Both the position numbers and the translations under genes were made by a program. Source: Pseudodesulfovibrio nedwellii (GTDB taxonomy: Bacteria; Desulfobacterota; Desulfovibrionia; Desulfovibrionales; Desulfovibrionaceae). Taken from it: a stretch of 64,000 bases of DNA. This document shows positions 8,836 through 16,285 of the stretch, piece after piece (within the stretch, counting starts at the first letter, position 1; every line of letters starts with the position of its first letter). The notes beneath the pieces are model-generated. The model was not told the origin of the DNA, searched no databases, and saw only the letters and a program-made list of their open reading frames with translations. The stretch lies in the NCBI RefSeq assembly GCF_027923765.1, contig NZ_AP026709.1:3461501-3525500 (forward strand). Reading direction: 5' to 3'.

Positions 8836-9408
8836 TTATCCTTGTATATTCAGAAAGTTCTGGAGTAATTTCGGGCCGTCCGGTGTGAGGATGGATTCCG
8901 GGTGGAACTGGACGCCATGCCATGGCCGGTCCTTGTACTGGATACCCATGATTTCGCCCTGTCGGGTTCGGGCCGTGACATCGAGTGTGTCTGCCGCTTT
9001 CTCAGCCGGAACAATGAGCGAGTGGTATCTGCACACCTCGAAGGGTGAGTCGAGACCGGCAAAAATGCCTTGCCCACCGTGGATTACCTGCGAGGTCTTG
9101 CCGTGCATGATACGTTCGGCGCGTTCTACAGGTGCTCCGGCAAAGTGCCCAAGGGTCTGATGCCCCAGACATACGCCGAATACCGGAATCGCTTTAGGCA
9201 GTCGGCTGAGGAATTCCAGACAAAAACCGGCATTTTCCGGGTTGCTTGGTCCGGGTGAAAGACAAACTCGTTCAAGCGTGCCGCTTTGTGCTAGATCCAG
9301 TACTGTTTCACGGTCGTTGCGGATGACCACGGGGTCGGCTCCAAGTTGTTGGAAGGCCTGTACCAGATTGAAGGTGAAGGAATCGAAATTATCTATCAGC
9401 AAAAACAT
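8836..9408 (-). CDS. trpG: Anthranilate synthase, glutamine amidotransferase subunit
   Basis: Class I glutamine amidotransferase that supplies ammonia to TrpE. 190 residues. The catalytic triad is visible: Cys80 in GVCLGHQ, and His169 and Glu171 in QFHPESI. The N-terminal LLIDNFDSFTFNL is the standard family start. It overlaps the 3' end of trpE by 20 bases. No PabA-specific neighbour is present, and its place in the trp operon argues for anthranilate synthase, although such subunits can also serve p-aminobenzoate synthase. Confidence 0.95.
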   Translation of the reverse strand: MFLLIDNFDSFTFNLVQAFQQLGADPVVIRNDRETVLDLAQSGTLERVCLSPGPSNPENAGFCLEFLSRLPKAIPVFGVCLGHQTLGHFAGAPVERAERIMHGKTSQVIHGGQGIFAGLDSPFEVCRYHSLIVPAEKAADTLDVTARTRQGEIMGIQYKDRPWHGVQFHPESILTPDGPKLLQNFLNIQG

Positions 9409-10846
9409 CGGTTCCCCCCTTGCCTGTGATGACTTCCAGAATAACTCGTGCCTTGTTGTGACATTCGTTCCACTCGGATTCAGCGTCCGAGTCGTACACG
9501 ATGCCAGCTCCGGCCTGCCAGTGGCAGATGCCGTTTCGAATCCACATGGACCGGATGGTAATGCCCGTGTCGAGGGAGATAACGCCGTCGTCCAGCCCCA
9601 TCCAGCCTATGCAGCCGCCATAAGGGCCGCGTTCCTGTGGTTCCAGATCGGCGATAATTTCCATGGCCCGAATTTTCGGTGCGCCGGATAATGTTCCCGC
9701 CGGGAAGGTGGATTGAAGAACATCCACGCCATCCAGTCCGTCTTTTAGCTCGCCTTCCACATAGGAAGTGAGGTGCATGACATGGGAGAAGCGTTCAACG
9801 TTCATGAATTTTTCGACGGTGACTGTGCCGGGTTTGGAAATACGACCCAGATCGTTTCGCCCGAGGTCGACCAGCATGACATGCTCGGCCCGTTCTTTGG
9901 GGTCGGCCAACAGTTCTTTTTCCAGACGCATATCTTCTTTCTCGGTTTCGCCTCTCCAGCGAGTTCCGGCGATGGGACGTACTTCCAGATGTCCGGCCGA
10001 GCTTCTGACCATCATTTCCGGGGATGATCCGAGCAGGGTGGTGCCACAGGTTTTGCCCATGGACGAGCAGTCCGGGAATTTCATGTAGAACATGAATGGT
10101 GAAGGGTTGGCCTGTCTGAGGCGGCGATAAATCTTGAAAGGTTCATCCGGCAAAGGCACGGTGAATCGGGTGGACAACACCACTTGAATGCATTCGCCTT
10201 CGGCAATGAGTTCCTTGCACCGCTCTACGCCGCGCATGTATTCTTCCTTACCGGGATGGACCGTGGGTGTCCCGACCTCGGGAGCAGTCAGGTCCGCGCC
10301 CCATTGAATGGGGGCAGGCATGGGGGTCGCGCCTTTATCAAGGCTGAGATAGCAGCAGGAGTGGCGCAGGTGATCGAAAAGGACCATTTGTCCGGGCAGG
10401 ACTAAACACGCCTCGGCATCGGCTGGTTTGCAGCATTCGGTCAGCTTGCGTTCGAACATGCCAGCTACGCCATATCCGAAGTAGCCGTACAGACCGCGAG
10501 TCAGACCGGGGAGGCCGTCACGCGCGTTGCCACCGGTGGTTTCCTGCGTGATTGAGAGTAGTTTCACGGCCTTTTTAATGCCGGTGAGATACTCCATACC
10601 TTCCAGCTCTTTGAGCTGGGCGAGTCTATCGTCTGAAACTTCTACCACCAGCTTGCCATCCACAGGGTGGAGCATGAGTCGATAGTCCCAGGCGATCAAA
10701 CTGTATCGACCAAGGCGACCATCCACCTCTGCCGATTCCAGCAAAATGCCGGGTTGGTCTCCCACCAGTCCCATATAGAGGGATATGGTGGTCTGGACGT
10801 CAGCCGGGAGCCACTTCCCGTGCTGCGTCAGTGAAATCTTTTCCAT
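9389..10846 (-). CDS. trpE: Anthranilate synthase component I
   Basis: Converts chorismate to anthranilate using ammonia from TrpG. The start MEKISL at 10846 follows AAGGA; an upstream extension to 10903 adds residues from the leader and is not supported. The protein has 485 residues. An LLES motif (residues 35-38) near the N-terminus marks the tryptophan feedback site of this family. The chorismate-binding domain shows PIAGTRWRGETEKED, VDLGRNDLGRI and the C-terminal GAPKIRAMEI. It is the first gene of the trp section and lies behind a candidate attenuator that overlaps the end of tyrA. Confidence 0.96.
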   Translation of the reverse strand: MEKISLTQHGKWLPADVQTTISLYMGLVGDQPGILLESAEVDGRLGRYSLIAWDYRLMLHPVDGKLVVEVSDDRLAQLKELEGMEYLTGIKKAVKLLSITQETTGGNARDGLPGLTRGLYGYFGYGVAGMFERKLTECCKPADAEACLVLPGQMVLFDHLRHSCCYLSLDKGATPMPAPIQWGADLTAPEVGTPTVHPGKEEYMRGVERCKELIAEGECIQVVLSTRFTVPLPDEPFKIYRRLRQANPSPFMFYMKFPDCSSMGKTCGTTLLGSSPEMMVRSSAGHLEVRPIAGTRWRGETEKEDMRLEKELLADPKERAEHVMLVDLGRNDLGRISKPGTVTVEKFMNVERFSHVMHLTSYVEGELKDGLDGVDVLQSTFPAGTLSGAPKIRAMEIIADLEPQERGPYGGCIGWMGLDDGVISLDTGITIRSMWIRNGICHWQAGAGIVYDSDAESEWNECHNKARVILEVITGKGGTDVFADR

Positions 10847-10964: not shown

Positions 10965-10999
10965 AAAAAAGGCCGTACCCTTTCTGGGGGTGCGGCCTT
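10965..10999 (-). terminator. Terminator of the tyrA-trpE attenuator
   Basis: AAGGCCGCACCC pairs with GGGTACGGCCTT and is followed by TTTTTTATAA on the minus strand, a canonical intrinsic terminator inside the operon, between tyrA and trpE. Confidence 0.85.
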
Positions 11000-11067
11000 G
11001 GTTCACGTTTGATTCCAAGTAACGGCATGAGCCGCACCATTTATGAAGTTTCGTTACGCCACCACCA
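10965..11067 (-). promoter_or_regulatory. Candidate Trp attenuator using the 3' end of tyrA as leader
   Basis: Three consecutive TGG (Trp) codons (11067-11059) end just before the tyrA stop at 11043-11041. Directly after the stop, GGTGCGGC (11038-11031) is the perfect complement of GCCGCACC (10996-10989), which is the 5' arm of the downstream terminator. Pairing of these two would destroy the terminator. A ribosome that reaches the stop codon would cover the first segment and let the terminator form. A ribosome stalled at the Trp codons would leave it free to form the antiterminator and allow trpE transcription. A further 6-bp pairing (GTAACG with CGTTAC) may act as the pause hairpin. The geometry is that of classical trp attenuation, but with a structural gene as leader. 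Confidence 0.7.
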
Positions 11068-11811
11068 CTGTGCCCGATCTGCGAGCAGATCGAGATCACC
11101 GCCTGCGGCCAGGCTGAGGTAGGACATGAATTTGCGGTTGACTTCCTGAAGAAATGGATTCGATTCAGAGATGATCTCGAAGAGTTCCGTATCCTGTGTG
11201 AGCATTTTACGGGCAGAGTCCAATCTGCGTTTGAACGAGGGGGTGATGAAGTTATCAATACCTTCCACATCTCTGGCTGCAGCTAAAAAAGCCACGGTGG
11301 ACGTGAAATTCAATCCCTGAACAAAGGCCATGGATCGGTCGTGATCTTCAGCTGTTGTCGAGAAACAGTCGTAGCCACATGCCTGCATGAGGCTGGTGAC
11401 TTTGTTTGCGGCATCTGTATCGGTCTCGCGTCCCGGCGCGACAGCAATCTTGGGTGTAAAATCTTCCGGGATGACTGGTCCGAAAAGCGGATGCGTACCG
11501 ACCACTGGACCGTCATAACTTTCTGTCATTGCTTTCATGGGGAGCATTTTGACTGAGCCAACATCGCACAGGATCGTGGTGCCGTTCAGGTACGGCACCA
11601 CCTGGTCCAAGACGGATTTCATGGCCGTTACCGGCACACTGAGCAGCAACATGTCGCAGTCGGTGAGAGCCTCGCGGAGTGTATCCTCGGTGTATGGAAG
11701 GTCCAAAGCAATGACAGTGCGTCCGAGATCGGCAAAGGCTTTGAAAAAAAGCCCGCCCATCTGACCGCTTGCGCCCGCGATGGCGATTGTATGTATATCT
11801 GCCTCAGTCAT
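11041..11811 (-). CDS. tyrA: Prephenate dehydrogenase
   Basis: NAD(P)-dependent oxidative decarboxylation of prephenate to 4-hydroxyphenylpyruvate for tyrosine. With the ATG at 11811 the protein has 256 residues and begins MTEADIHTIAIAGASGQMGG, a Rossmann glycine-rich loop at residues 13-20. LLLSVPVTAM and GTHPLFGP cover the substrate and active-site region. A longer reading from 11871 would overlap aroA by 56 bases. No chorismate mutase or ACT domain is attached. The C-terminus is unusual: ADRAQWWWRNETS, with three Trp codons in a row that appear to have a second, regulatory job for the downstream trp genes. Confidence 0.9.
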   Translation of the reverse strand: MTEADIHTIAIAGASGQMGGLFFKAFADLGRTVIALDLPYTEDTLREALTDCDMLLLSVPVTAMKSVLDQVVPYLNGTTILCDVGSVKMLPMKAMTESYDGPVVGTHPLFGPVIPEDFTPKIAVAPGRETDTDAANKVTSLMQACGYDCFSTTAEDHDRSMAFVQGLNFTSTVAFLAAARDVEGIDNFITPSFKRRLDSARKMLTQDTELFEIISESNPFLQEVNRKFMSYLSLAAGGDLDLLADRAQWWWRNETS

Positions 11812-11815
11812 TGCC

Positions 11816-13156
11816 TTATCCGATGATTTTTTCCCATTCGTCCCAGAAGCCGGGGAATGATTTGTTGACACAGGTCGGATTGTCGAGAGTGACGTCGATA
11901 CCCGCCAATTGAAACAGGGACATGGACATAGCCATGCGATGGTCGCCGTATGTCGTGAAATCTATTGCATGTCCGTTGGGCAGCCTGCCGGGGCGGATGA
12001 TGAGTGTGTCTTCAACGATTTCGGTTTCGGCCTGAGTGCGGGATACTTCCAGAGCACAGGCTTCCAGTCTGTCGGTTTCTTTGATGCGCAGATGGGCCAC
12101 ATTGGTGATGGTGGTCGGTGAGGTGGCGAATGCTGCGGCGGCGGAAACTGTCGGGACCAGATCCGGGCAACGGCCCATGTCCACGGTTATACCATGCAAG
12201 GTGCTCGGTTCAATGAGGATGCCGTCAAAGGTGACTTTGATCGATGCGCCCATCTGGCTGAGAATATCCATGATGGCCCGGTCGCCTTGAAGCGAATCAG
12301 CTGCCAGTCCCTTGATGAGTACGGGGCGTCTGCCAACAGCTCCGGCGGCCAGAAAGTAACTGGCGTTGGACCAGTCGCCTTCCACTCGATAATGTGTCGG
12401 ATCATAGCCGGTCGGTTTGACAATGAACCGAATTTTGCCAGGGCTGACGACCTTGATGGAGCGCCACGGTACGGCTTCCCATTTCTTGCCGTTTTTGATT
12501 TCGACTTCGAACCCTGCCTTGAAATCTTCCATGATGCGTAAGGTCAGAGCCACATACGGCCAGGAAACAGCTTTTTTTCCCGTGACCGTGATTGTGGTTT
12601 CATGGTCAGTCAAAGGCGCACCTAGGAGCAGACCGGAGAGGTATTGGCTGCTTTCTTCCAGGGTGATTTCCACCTTTTTCGAGGTGTAGCCTTTGCTGGT
12701 CATGATAAAGGGGAGGAATTCCTCTTTTTCAGCAAATTCGAATGTGGAGCCGAGTTTTTGCAAGGCTGTCACCAGTTCGGCCATGGGCCGTTCATGCATG
12801 CGCTGGGCGCCGTGTACTTTGAAGGAACCGTATCCGGCAGCGGCCACGGCGGTCATCAGACGGCAGGTGGTCCCGGATTCGTGCATGAATAATTCGTGCG
12901 GTTCTTCATCCTTGTGCTTGCCGTCAGCATTGCCGCCCTTGGGTCCGGACTCCATGCCTGTAACGATGAGTTTCCCGTCCTTTTCATCGATTTTTGCTCC
13001 GCAGGCGGTCAGACAACCGCGTGTGCGGGTGATGTCGTCTGAATCGAGGATAGATGATACTTCGGAGACGCCGTTGGCCAATGCTGCCGCGATGAGTGTG
13101 CGGTGGGAAAGCGACTTGCTGGCCGGTGCATTGATGATAATCGGTTCCTTGGTCAT
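11816..13156 (-). CDS. aroA: 3-phosphoshikimate 1-carboxyvinyltransferase (EPSP synthase)
   Basis: Joins PEP and shikimate 3-phosphate. 446 residues from the ATG at 13156, which has GGAG upstream and shares ATGA with the pheA stop. The N-terminal active-site segment NAPASKSLSHRTL carries the catalytic Lys14 and the substrate-binding Ser and Arg; HESGTTCRLMTAVAAA is the PEP/phosphate loop; LRIKETDRL is the C-terminal signature. An acidic/Lys-rich insert at about residues 75-90 (NADGKHKDEEP) is longer than in enteric AroA. The sequence resembles the divergent EPSP synthase class of Desulfovibrio more than the E. coli type. Confidence 0.93.
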   Translation of the reverse strand: MTKEPIIINAPASKSLSHRTLIAAALANGVSEVSSILDSDDITRTRGCLTACGAKIDEKDGKLIVTGMESGPKGGNADGKHKDEEPHELFMHESGTTCRLMTAVAAAGYGSFKVHGAQRMHERPMAELVTALQKLGSTFEFAEKEEFLPFIMTSKGYTSKKVEITLEESSQYLSGLLLGAPLTDHETTITVTGKKAVSWPYVALTLRIMEDFKAGFEVEIKNGKKWEAVPWRSIKVVSPGKIRFIVKPTGYDPTHYRVEGDWSNASYFLAAGAVGRRPVLIKGLAADSLQGDRAIMDILSQMGASIKVTFDGILIEPSTLHGITVDMGRCPDLVPTVSAAAAFATSPTTITNVAHLRIKETDRLEACALEVSRTQAETEIVEDTLIIRPGRLPNGHAIDFTTYGDHRMAMSMSLFQLAGIDVTLDNPTCVNKSFPGFWDEWEKIIG

Positions 13157-16113: not shown

Positions 16114-16154
16114 CCACAAAAAACAAGGGCCGCCGGCTTTCGCCCGCGGCCCTT
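16114..16154 (-). terminator. Attenuator terminator in the aromatic operon leader
   Basis: A 13-bp stem with one mismatch (16142-16154 with 16125-16137) closed by a GAAA tetraloop, followed on the minus strand by GTTTTTTG. It lies between the leader peptide and the ADH synthase gene. Confidence 0.85.
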
Positions 16155-16285
16155 GAAGAGGTTTTGTTCAGTTTGTATCCACCAGTTGGCTACAATGCAC
16201 CTCTCCCAAGACCACGAGCGTGGCAATACCAATACCAGAAGGTAAAGTTGGAAAAGGATACGTTGGAGACGGTTGTGGAGTTCAT
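16150..16285 (-). promoter_or_regulatory. Aromatic amino acid attenuator with antiterminator
   Basis: CTTGGGAGAGG (16210-16200, inside the leader-peptide gene) can pair with CCTCTTCAAGG (16161-16151), which includes the start of the terminator stem. Stalling at the Phe/Trp/Tyr codons (about 16240-16226) leaves the first segment free and favours this antiterminator. Translation to the stop at 16190 covers it and favours the terminator. The arrangement senses all three aromatic amino acids, which fits an operon that makes all three. Confidence 0.8.
16190..16285 (-). CDS. Leader peptide rich in Phe, Trp and Tyr
   Basis: A 31-codon frame, ATG at 16285-16283 to TAG at 16192-16190. It contains Phe at positions 11, 14 and 16 followed directly by Trp-Tyr-Trp-Tyr-Cys (17-21), the core being NFTFWYWYCH. 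Runs of rare aromatic codons before a terminator are the hallmark of attenuation leaders such as trpL and pheL. The ribosome-binding site is poor (AATAAAG). An in-frame TGA lies upstream, so no longer protein is possible. It is shorter than most gene-finder cut-offs. Confidence 0.8.
   Translation of the reverse strand: MNSTTVSNVSFSNFTFWYWYCHARGLGRGAL

Follow-up and report, generated by a model that had tools for sequence, protein, structure and literature searches.

The 3′ end of tyrA as a probable leader of a tryptophan attenuator before trpE in Desulfovibrionales

Leader peptides are usually encoded by small genes of their own. In Escherichia coli, the leader trpL is a dedicated ORF of 14 residues; its tandem Trp codons are followed by competing antiterminator and terminator helices before trpE, with the antiterminator arm 14 nt past the last Trp codon. 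In E. coli rph-pyrE, it is the 3′ end of a structural gene that is translated ahead of an attenuator and acts as its leader; this system senses UTP through the distance between the polymerase and the ribosome. In the aro-trp supraoperon of Desulfovibrio vulgaris, an attenuator is listed, apparently ahead of aroA' (PMC1173090, Table 7); the available part of that account mentions none between tyrA and the trp genes. A literature search, mostly in open-access sources, revealed no structural gene with regulatory codons described as a leader and no description of a tyrA-trpE attenuator, which may nevertheless be described elsewhere.

In the sulfate-reducing bacterium Pseudodesulfovibrio nedwellii, there is, with high probability, an internal, Trp-specific, ribosome-mediated attenuator before trpE whose leader ORF is the 3′ end of tyrA. 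Like trpL, it combines tandem Trp codons with a competing antiterminator and terminator in front of trpE. In contrast to trpL, the predicted leader is a complete enzyme gene within the operon, so that the sensing ribosome has already translated about 270 codons on arrival, and the control point comes after tyrA itself. As in rph-pyrE, the 3′ end of a structural gene is the translated leader, but rph-pyrE is not known to have a regulatory codon run or a comparable antiterminator. The tyrA arrangement thus appears to be a variant of trp-type ribosome-mediated attenuation that is new in using a structural gene as the leader. The last codons of the enzyme seem to sense an amino acid other than its own product.

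The window, i.e., the whole analysed stretch of 64,000 nt, contains on its minus strand the gene order aroA'-aroB'-pheA-aroA-tyrA-trpE-trpG-trpD-trpC-trpF-trpB-trpA, as read from the ORF list (Table 1). Ten of the ORFs were scanned against NCBIfam: trpG, trpD, trpC, and trpB matched their families, the best matches of the tyrA and trpE ORFs fell below the curated cut-offs, and trpF and trpA were named from their translations alone. The nearest named relative is Pseudodesulfovibrio sp. OB3, with a 99% identical TyrA. TyrA ends in AQWWWRNETS, and the three Trp codons are found where the original prediction had placed them, five sense codons (RNETS) ahead of the stop. The same prediction described GGTGCGGC as a perfect complement of the 5′ arm of the terminator located directly after the stop codon. 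It is indeed an exact 8-base complement of GCCGCACC; its position needs a small correction, as it starts 2 nt beyond the stop, which is 20 nt past the last Trp codon. The terminator hairpin ends in TTTTTT and is absent from the output of a simple consensus terminator scan. The fold of the window also includes a local hairpin that takes in region 2, a candidate for the 1:2 pause hairpin that keeps ribosome and polymerase in step in trp-type attenuators. Judged by eye, most rows of alignment A1 have a GCC after region 2.

Table 1. Features of the aro-trp supraoperon and of its two attenuators (window coordinates)
Feature	Position	Strand	Basis
Aromatic leader peptide ORF MNSTTVSNVSFSNFTFWYWYCHARGLGRGAL, with Phe, Trp, and Tyr codons	16190..16285	-	Sequence
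Terminator of the head attenuator	16124..16155	-	Hairpin of -29.0 kcal/mol, then TTTTTT
tyrA, prephenate dehydrogenase type, 276 aa; 3′ end is the proposed leader ORF	11041..11871	-	ORF; TyrA models top, below cut-off
TGG TGG TGG, proposed stall site	11059..11067	-	Sequence; WWW in 103/105 loci passing the fixed criteria
tyrA stop codon, TAA	11043-11041	-	Sequence
Region 2, antiterminator 5′ arm GGTGCGGC	11031..11038	-	Sequence, folding, genus covariation
Region 3 GCCGCACC, common to antiterminator and terminator	10989..10996	-	Sequence, genus covariation
Intrinsic terminator hairpin and U tract (regions 3 and 4)	10965..10999	-	-16.6 kcal/mol; covariation
trpE, first controlled gene	9389..10846	-	ORF; NCBIfam best match trpE_most, below curated cut-off
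trpG-trpD-trpC-trpF-trpB-trpA, remaining controlled segment	4382..9408	-	ORFs; part NCBIfam, trpF and trpA from translations

The proposed mechanism is as follows. At low levels of charged tRNA-Trp, the ribosome that directly follows RNA polymerase would stall on the TGG run and leave region 2, about 20 nt further on, free to pair with region 3 once that is made. This pairing would block the terminator and allow transcription of trpEGDCFBA. When Trp is plentiful, the ribosome would reach the tyrA stop and cover region 2, and region 3 would pair with region 4, forming a terminator that stops transcription before trpE while aroA' to tyrA are still made. The stall, Trp as the signal, and termination in vivo are what we infer from this arrangement. 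It assumes that the lead ribosome is still close behind the polymerase at the end of the 830-nt tyrA, which makes the locus a natural test of how long the coupling of the two lasts. The leader carries a codon run for the end product of the pathway, a terminator precedes the first controlled gene, and a mutually exclusive antiterminator is placed where a stalled ribosome would free it, all as expected of a trp-type attenuator; a departure is that the leader is tyrA (276 aa) rather than a short dedicated peptide gene.

Taken alone, the complement in this genome is only moderately unusual. The arm duplex reaches a p value of 0.020 against 200 dinucleotide shuffles; for the 119-nt region, the folding z score is -1.4 (18 of the 200 shuffles fold equally well); and TGGTGGTGG occurs twice in the window where 0.45 occurrences are expected. 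With a single-genome p value of just 0.02, the comparison across genomes had to decide.

TyrA searches in 297 genomes of the order gave matches in 278. From these, a set covering the numbered genera was taken, and named genomes were added to it. Collapsing identical 180-nt junctions left 183 distinct loci of the order; the counts exclude L227-L249, 23 TyrA loci from outside it. In 143 of these 183 loci, trpE directly follows tyrA. The other loci are nonadjacent in the sense that no trpE match falls within the stretch examined, which in some cases stops at a contig end. Fixed criteria (a terminator plus an arm 8 to 26 nt past the final Trp codon, with a shuffle p value of 0.1 or less) identify the device in 105 of the 143 trpE-adjacent loci, with p at most 0.01 in 71 of them. 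Seven subthreshold loci (L012, L095, L096, L156, L184, L193, and L197) were accepted by eye, bringing the number to 112. An absence of terminator/antiterminator pairing in relatives, which would have counted against the original prediction, is thus not what the order displays. Among the trpE-adjacent loci whose gap is 60 nt or more, 112 of 124 have an intrinsic terminator; these are not the same 112 as the device-bearing loci.

The device is present in 25 of the 47 numbered genera examined, in 24 of them in every examined locus. Among its named carriers are Pseudodesulfovibrio, Humidesulfovibrio, Nitratidesulfovibrio, Desulfomicrobium, Halodesulfovibrio, Desulfonatronum, and Desulfonauticus; L181 and L182, relatives of Nitratidesulfovibrio vulgaris Hildenborough, have it as well. 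It is missing from 12 of the 47 numbered genera even though trpE is adjacent, and from the three inspected records of Solidesulfovibrio, in which tyrA and trpE overlap by 4 nt and the TyrA tail is AWW. Four loci (L046, L047, L157, and L166) combine WWW with a gap of 130 to 250 nt before trpE in which no terminator was found; L046 and L047 contain, by eye, a GC-rich inverted repeat 3′ of the tyrA stop with no T run. These four possibly represent a decayed or Rho-type attenuator. WWW without a terminator before trpE is also seen in L059, L060, and L061-L063, with tyrA and trpE overlapping in the last three, so the Trp run can be retained where the switch is missing.

The arm keeps its distance from the Trp codons. 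In the 105 loci, it starts 16.4 nt after the last TGG on average (standard deviation [SD], 3.2; range, 8 to 23), whereas its start relative to the tyrA stop averages -9.1 nt and is far more scattered (SD, 9.3; range, -29 to +8). Among the 112 loci with a terminator, the 8- to 26-nt distance criterion alone removed just three (L113, L156, and L197); therefore, the narrow spread of the arm is not a product of that criterion. The antiterminator cores, searched for 5 to 27 nt past the last TGG, start at 17.2 nt (SD, 2.6) and comprise 73 distinct sequences in the 105 loci, with a median length of 9 bp (range, 5 to 14). In 60 of these loci, the arm begins within tyrA, in 59 of them by more than 2 nt, and these 59 are distributed over the three reading frames 25/17/17. 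With the distance fixed to TGG and not to the stop, and with arms in all three frames, it is the RNA, rather than the peptide, that is conserved. This suggests that the 3′ end of a coding sequence may be molded by an RNA switch.

The same spacing bears on the best-surviving alternative, which is nevertheless improbable: both RNA structures exist, but what they sense is the general proximity of a ribosome, through translation coupled to transcription at the end of tyrA as in rph-pyrE of E. coli, and the Trp run is just structural in TyrA. An arm that tracks the TGG run and not the stop speaks against this reading, while the distribution of the run itself cuts both ways. WWW or a longer run is found in 110 of the 112 device-bearing loci (L197, scored as LKW by the script, is in fact WWWW), the exceptions being L069 (CWW) and L118 (LWW). 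By contrast, only 11 of the 31 trpE-adjacent loci without the device have WWW, and the other 20 start with another residue (11 AWW, 3 RWW, 2 SWW, 2 GWW, 1 KWW, and 1 TWW). The first Trp thus deviates in 2 of 112 versus 20 of 31 loci, although the loci are related to one another. The second and third Trp, however, are invariant in an alignment of 28 TyrA sequences that includes device-less loci, as the structural reading would have it. WWW is also found in 26 of the 40 loci with no trpE in the stretch examined, two of these 26 being contig ends that carry the device. The remaining 38 nonadjacent, device-less loci have WWW in 24 cases, another residue before WW in 8, and a single Trp in 6 (GRW, RRW, QKW, QRW, ASW, and KGW). 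Altogether, 35 of the 69 TyrA loci without the device, adjacent or not, retain WWW, and therefore the Trp run is also, or sometimes solely, a feature of the protein. Its second and third residues probably have a role in the protein as well. WW is absent from the last 60 residues of all 23 best TyrA relatives outside the order. On a midpoint-rooted tree of the TyrA core, parsimony assigns 10 changes to the device and 16 to WWW, with L197 counted as deviating.

Trp runs in TyrA proteins that are not encoded upstream of trpE had been named beforehand as an argument against the Trp-sensing role, and this argument applies in part, as 26 of the 40 such loci have WWW. The RNA evidence stands all the same, since these lineages belong to the same order and trpE, where located elsewhere in them, mostly has a WW(W) leader of its own with an arm of the same type. 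In these loci, the run may reflect a role in the protein or be a relic. Conservation of the Trp codons, suggested as a check, is seen in the spacing described above, where the distance to the arm is kept and that to the stop is not.

In Desulfovibrio-like genera, tyrA and trpE are separate; no trpE match was obtained in 5 of the 45 genomes searched (G105, G292, G232, G275, and G120). Upstream of the detached trpE, 30 of 33 loci (L257-L261 and L265-L292) have an ORF in which two or more Trp codons stand in a row, with three in 21 of them, as in MNVFSNTISNSFKGWWWRIQLRGGDVRA. In L280 and L292, there are single Trp codons before trpE, and no convincing leader ORF was found upstream of trpE in L266. 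An arm 12 to 20 nt past the last Trp (p at most 0.05) is present in 24 of the 33 loci; among the other nine, the leader ORFs of L265 and L267 were missed by the script, and the rest fail on distance or p. Like the tyrA device, these stand-alone leaders show WW(W), an arm within the ORF, a terminator, and then trpE; they differ in being short separate ORFs with no tyrA directly upstream. Free of the constraints of the TyrA protein, they carry WW(W) nonetheless, which again argues against a purely structural Trp run. A switch of this type thus appears to occur in two settings, embedded in an enzyme gene and as a stand-alone leader of the classical form.

Nitratidesulfovibrio and Halodesulfovibrio, both with the device in their tyrA tails, are the genera with which the main detached clade groups in the TyrA-core tree. 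There is also a similarity between the tails of stand-alone leaders, for example RVVDVKGGVRPA, and the end of the Nitratidesulfovibrio TyrA, RSHTERGGVRPS. Of eleven leaders compared with tyrA tails for homology, eight passed the filter: in L257, the alignment has 24 identities in 39 positions against a shuffle maximum of 21, while the seven other leaders have 21 to 23 identities against shuffle maxima of 21 to 23. These figures are only suggestive of homology, and the likeness could instead be convergence on the same RNA pairing. We lean, by a small degree, toward a history in which the C terminus of an enzyme became a sensor in the ancestor of a large part of the Desulfovibrionales, RNA pairing shaped its tail, and the tail was later cut loose as a stand-alone leader. 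If so, a leader-peptide gene would have been born from the 3′ end of an enzyme gene when trpE moved away in Desulfovibrio-like lineages, and this could be a case where the origin of such a gene might be traced.

A second alternative, very unlikely, is that an ordinary terminator or processing site provides a fixed step-down between tyrA and trpE and that the arm reflects chance or mRNA stability. The modest single-genome values (arm p of 0.02, region z of -1.4) speak for it, as does, in part, a control in which each terminator arm was paired with 35-nt windows from other loci less than 60% identical. A terminator arm pairs with its own window better than with a foreign one by 5.9 kcal/mol on average. 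However, foreign windows pair as well as the locus's own in 18% of cases on average and in 30% for this genome, and fewer than 5% of them are as good in just 37 of the 112 loci. All arms are G-rich, and the specificity of pairing between genera is therefore limited. Against a fixed step-down stand the 105 loci with 73 different helices, each self-complementary and all in a fixed position, as well as covariation of both helices within the genus.

The genus alignment comprises 27 of the 33 genus loci (L001-L027), with 26 distinct rows; L028-L033, with longer TyrA tails, were left out. RNAalifold, tried on this alignment, recovers the terminator and misses the antiterminator, because region 3 can pair just once; the antiterminator pairs were therefore counted explicitly. 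The arm pairing is intact in 97.9% of the cells and drops to 38 to 53% when the partner is slid by 1 to 3 columns. Two of the nine arm pairs are changed on both sides, by G-C to A-U changes in L006 and L025, a count that 1 of 500 shuffles reaches. In the terminator, 98.8% of the cells are paired, and none of 500 shuffles reaches its 21 doubly changed cells. Covariation between regions 2 and 3, which had been named as a check on the prediction, is thus seen as two compensated pairs in the genus and, strongly, as 73 distinct helices across genera. Chance as the source of the arm complementarity is excluded by this genus comparison together with the 105 of 143 trpE-adjacent loci that pass the fixed criteria. 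Together, the order-wide spacing, the variety of helices, and the covariation in the genus lend support to the predicted role of the tyrA C terminus as the sensing leader for trpE-A, and the tyrA tail very probably doubles as a Trp sensor for the trp genes, one kept across much of the order.

Folding is consistent with this Trp-sensing role, within the limits of equilibrium calculations. In a masked folding test, the front edge of the ribosome was set 10 nt past the A-site codon and the RNA ended at region 3. With the second Trp codon in the A site, at least 5 pairs are expected between upstream RNA and region 3 in all 105 loci (median, 13.9). A ribosome placed at the stop lowers the median to 5.6 expected pairs; there are still at least 5 in 55 of the 105 loci and fewer than 2 in 19. 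E. coli trpL behaves the same in this test. Minimum-energy folding of the full region was discarded as a test of the switch, as the terminator stays in 93 of 105 loci with a stalled ribosome and in 104 of 105 with the ribosome at the stop. The E. coli trpL terminator also persists in full-length folding, which is why folding up to region 3 was used instead; with the terminator kept at equilibrium despite the stall in both systems, the switch would be kinetic in both.

Control by Trp through a protein or a tRNA-binding RNA (TRAP, T-box, or TrpR), with incidental Trp codons, is the least credible alternative: such systems control trp genes elsewhere, and PMC5343134, in its accessible text, describes TrpR regulons in lineages of gammaproteobacteria, but TrpR (PF01371) is not matched in this genome (the E. 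coli positive control is), Rfam has no match in the window at gathering scores, the Trp leader family included, and an Rfam search of seven loci at E values up to 1 yields a single unrelated subthreshold small-RNA family.

Published RNA-seq data for Desulfovibrio hydrothermalis offer a hint. In the part of PMC4162548 considered here, a table lists the aldolase-to-trpF genes in the same order by locus number. At 10 versus 0.1 MPa, trpE, trpG, and trpD are significantly down (log2 of -2.70, -2.73, and -2.60), and that column holds no value for aldolase to tyrA, trpC, and trpF; at 26 versus 0.1 MPa, all these aldolase-to-trpF genes fall (PMC4162548). As far as this table goes, the pattern fits a control point between tyrA and trpE; trpC and trpF also lack a value at 10 MPa, and the step between tyrA and trpE may thus be a threshold effect.

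The general aromatic attenuator that the original prediction assumed at the head of the operon has been located in this genome. The element spans 16285-16063 and consists of the leader ORF, a terminator, and a 13-bp alternative pairing before aroA', with the antiterminator arm within the leader ORF. The attenuator in Table 7 of PMC1173090 belongs to the same supraoperon in D. vulgaris and, by that table, apparently has a position like that of the 16285-16190 leader. A single supraoperon would thus be read as two units, with aromatic control at the head and Trp control past tyrA. Screens for terminators would tend to overlook such internal devices when they use a 1:1 distance rule, under which, as given in the available text of PMC2965389, a hairpin is dropped if it is closer to the upstream gene than to the downstream one.

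Between the attenuator and trpE lies a conserved ORF of 26 codons (10950-10873, minus strand) with an in-frame TGA at codon 5, a ribosome-binding site upstream, and the consensus M(K/N)GT-TGA-K..EN(R)KK.KGW.VIPRP(Y/L)(H/N). Its variable columns are distributed 10/8/22 over the three codon positions. Of 149 family genomes searched at the protein level with Cys at the TGA site, 6 gave a match; all six are Pseudodesulfovibrio and have TGA at this site. A pattern requiring TGA has 35 hits, of which 23 are copies of equal length, 4 are degraded, and 8 are chance hits in other genera. The genome encodes a tRNA-Sec (78.7 bits); the search for a SECIS element after the TGA revealed a weak hairpin alone, nothing convincing. 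This ORF is a candidate for a tiny selenoprotein or a recoded ORF. In the subclade of L009, L010, L016, and L018, it has decayed to MRDT-TGA-K followed by unrelated sequence.
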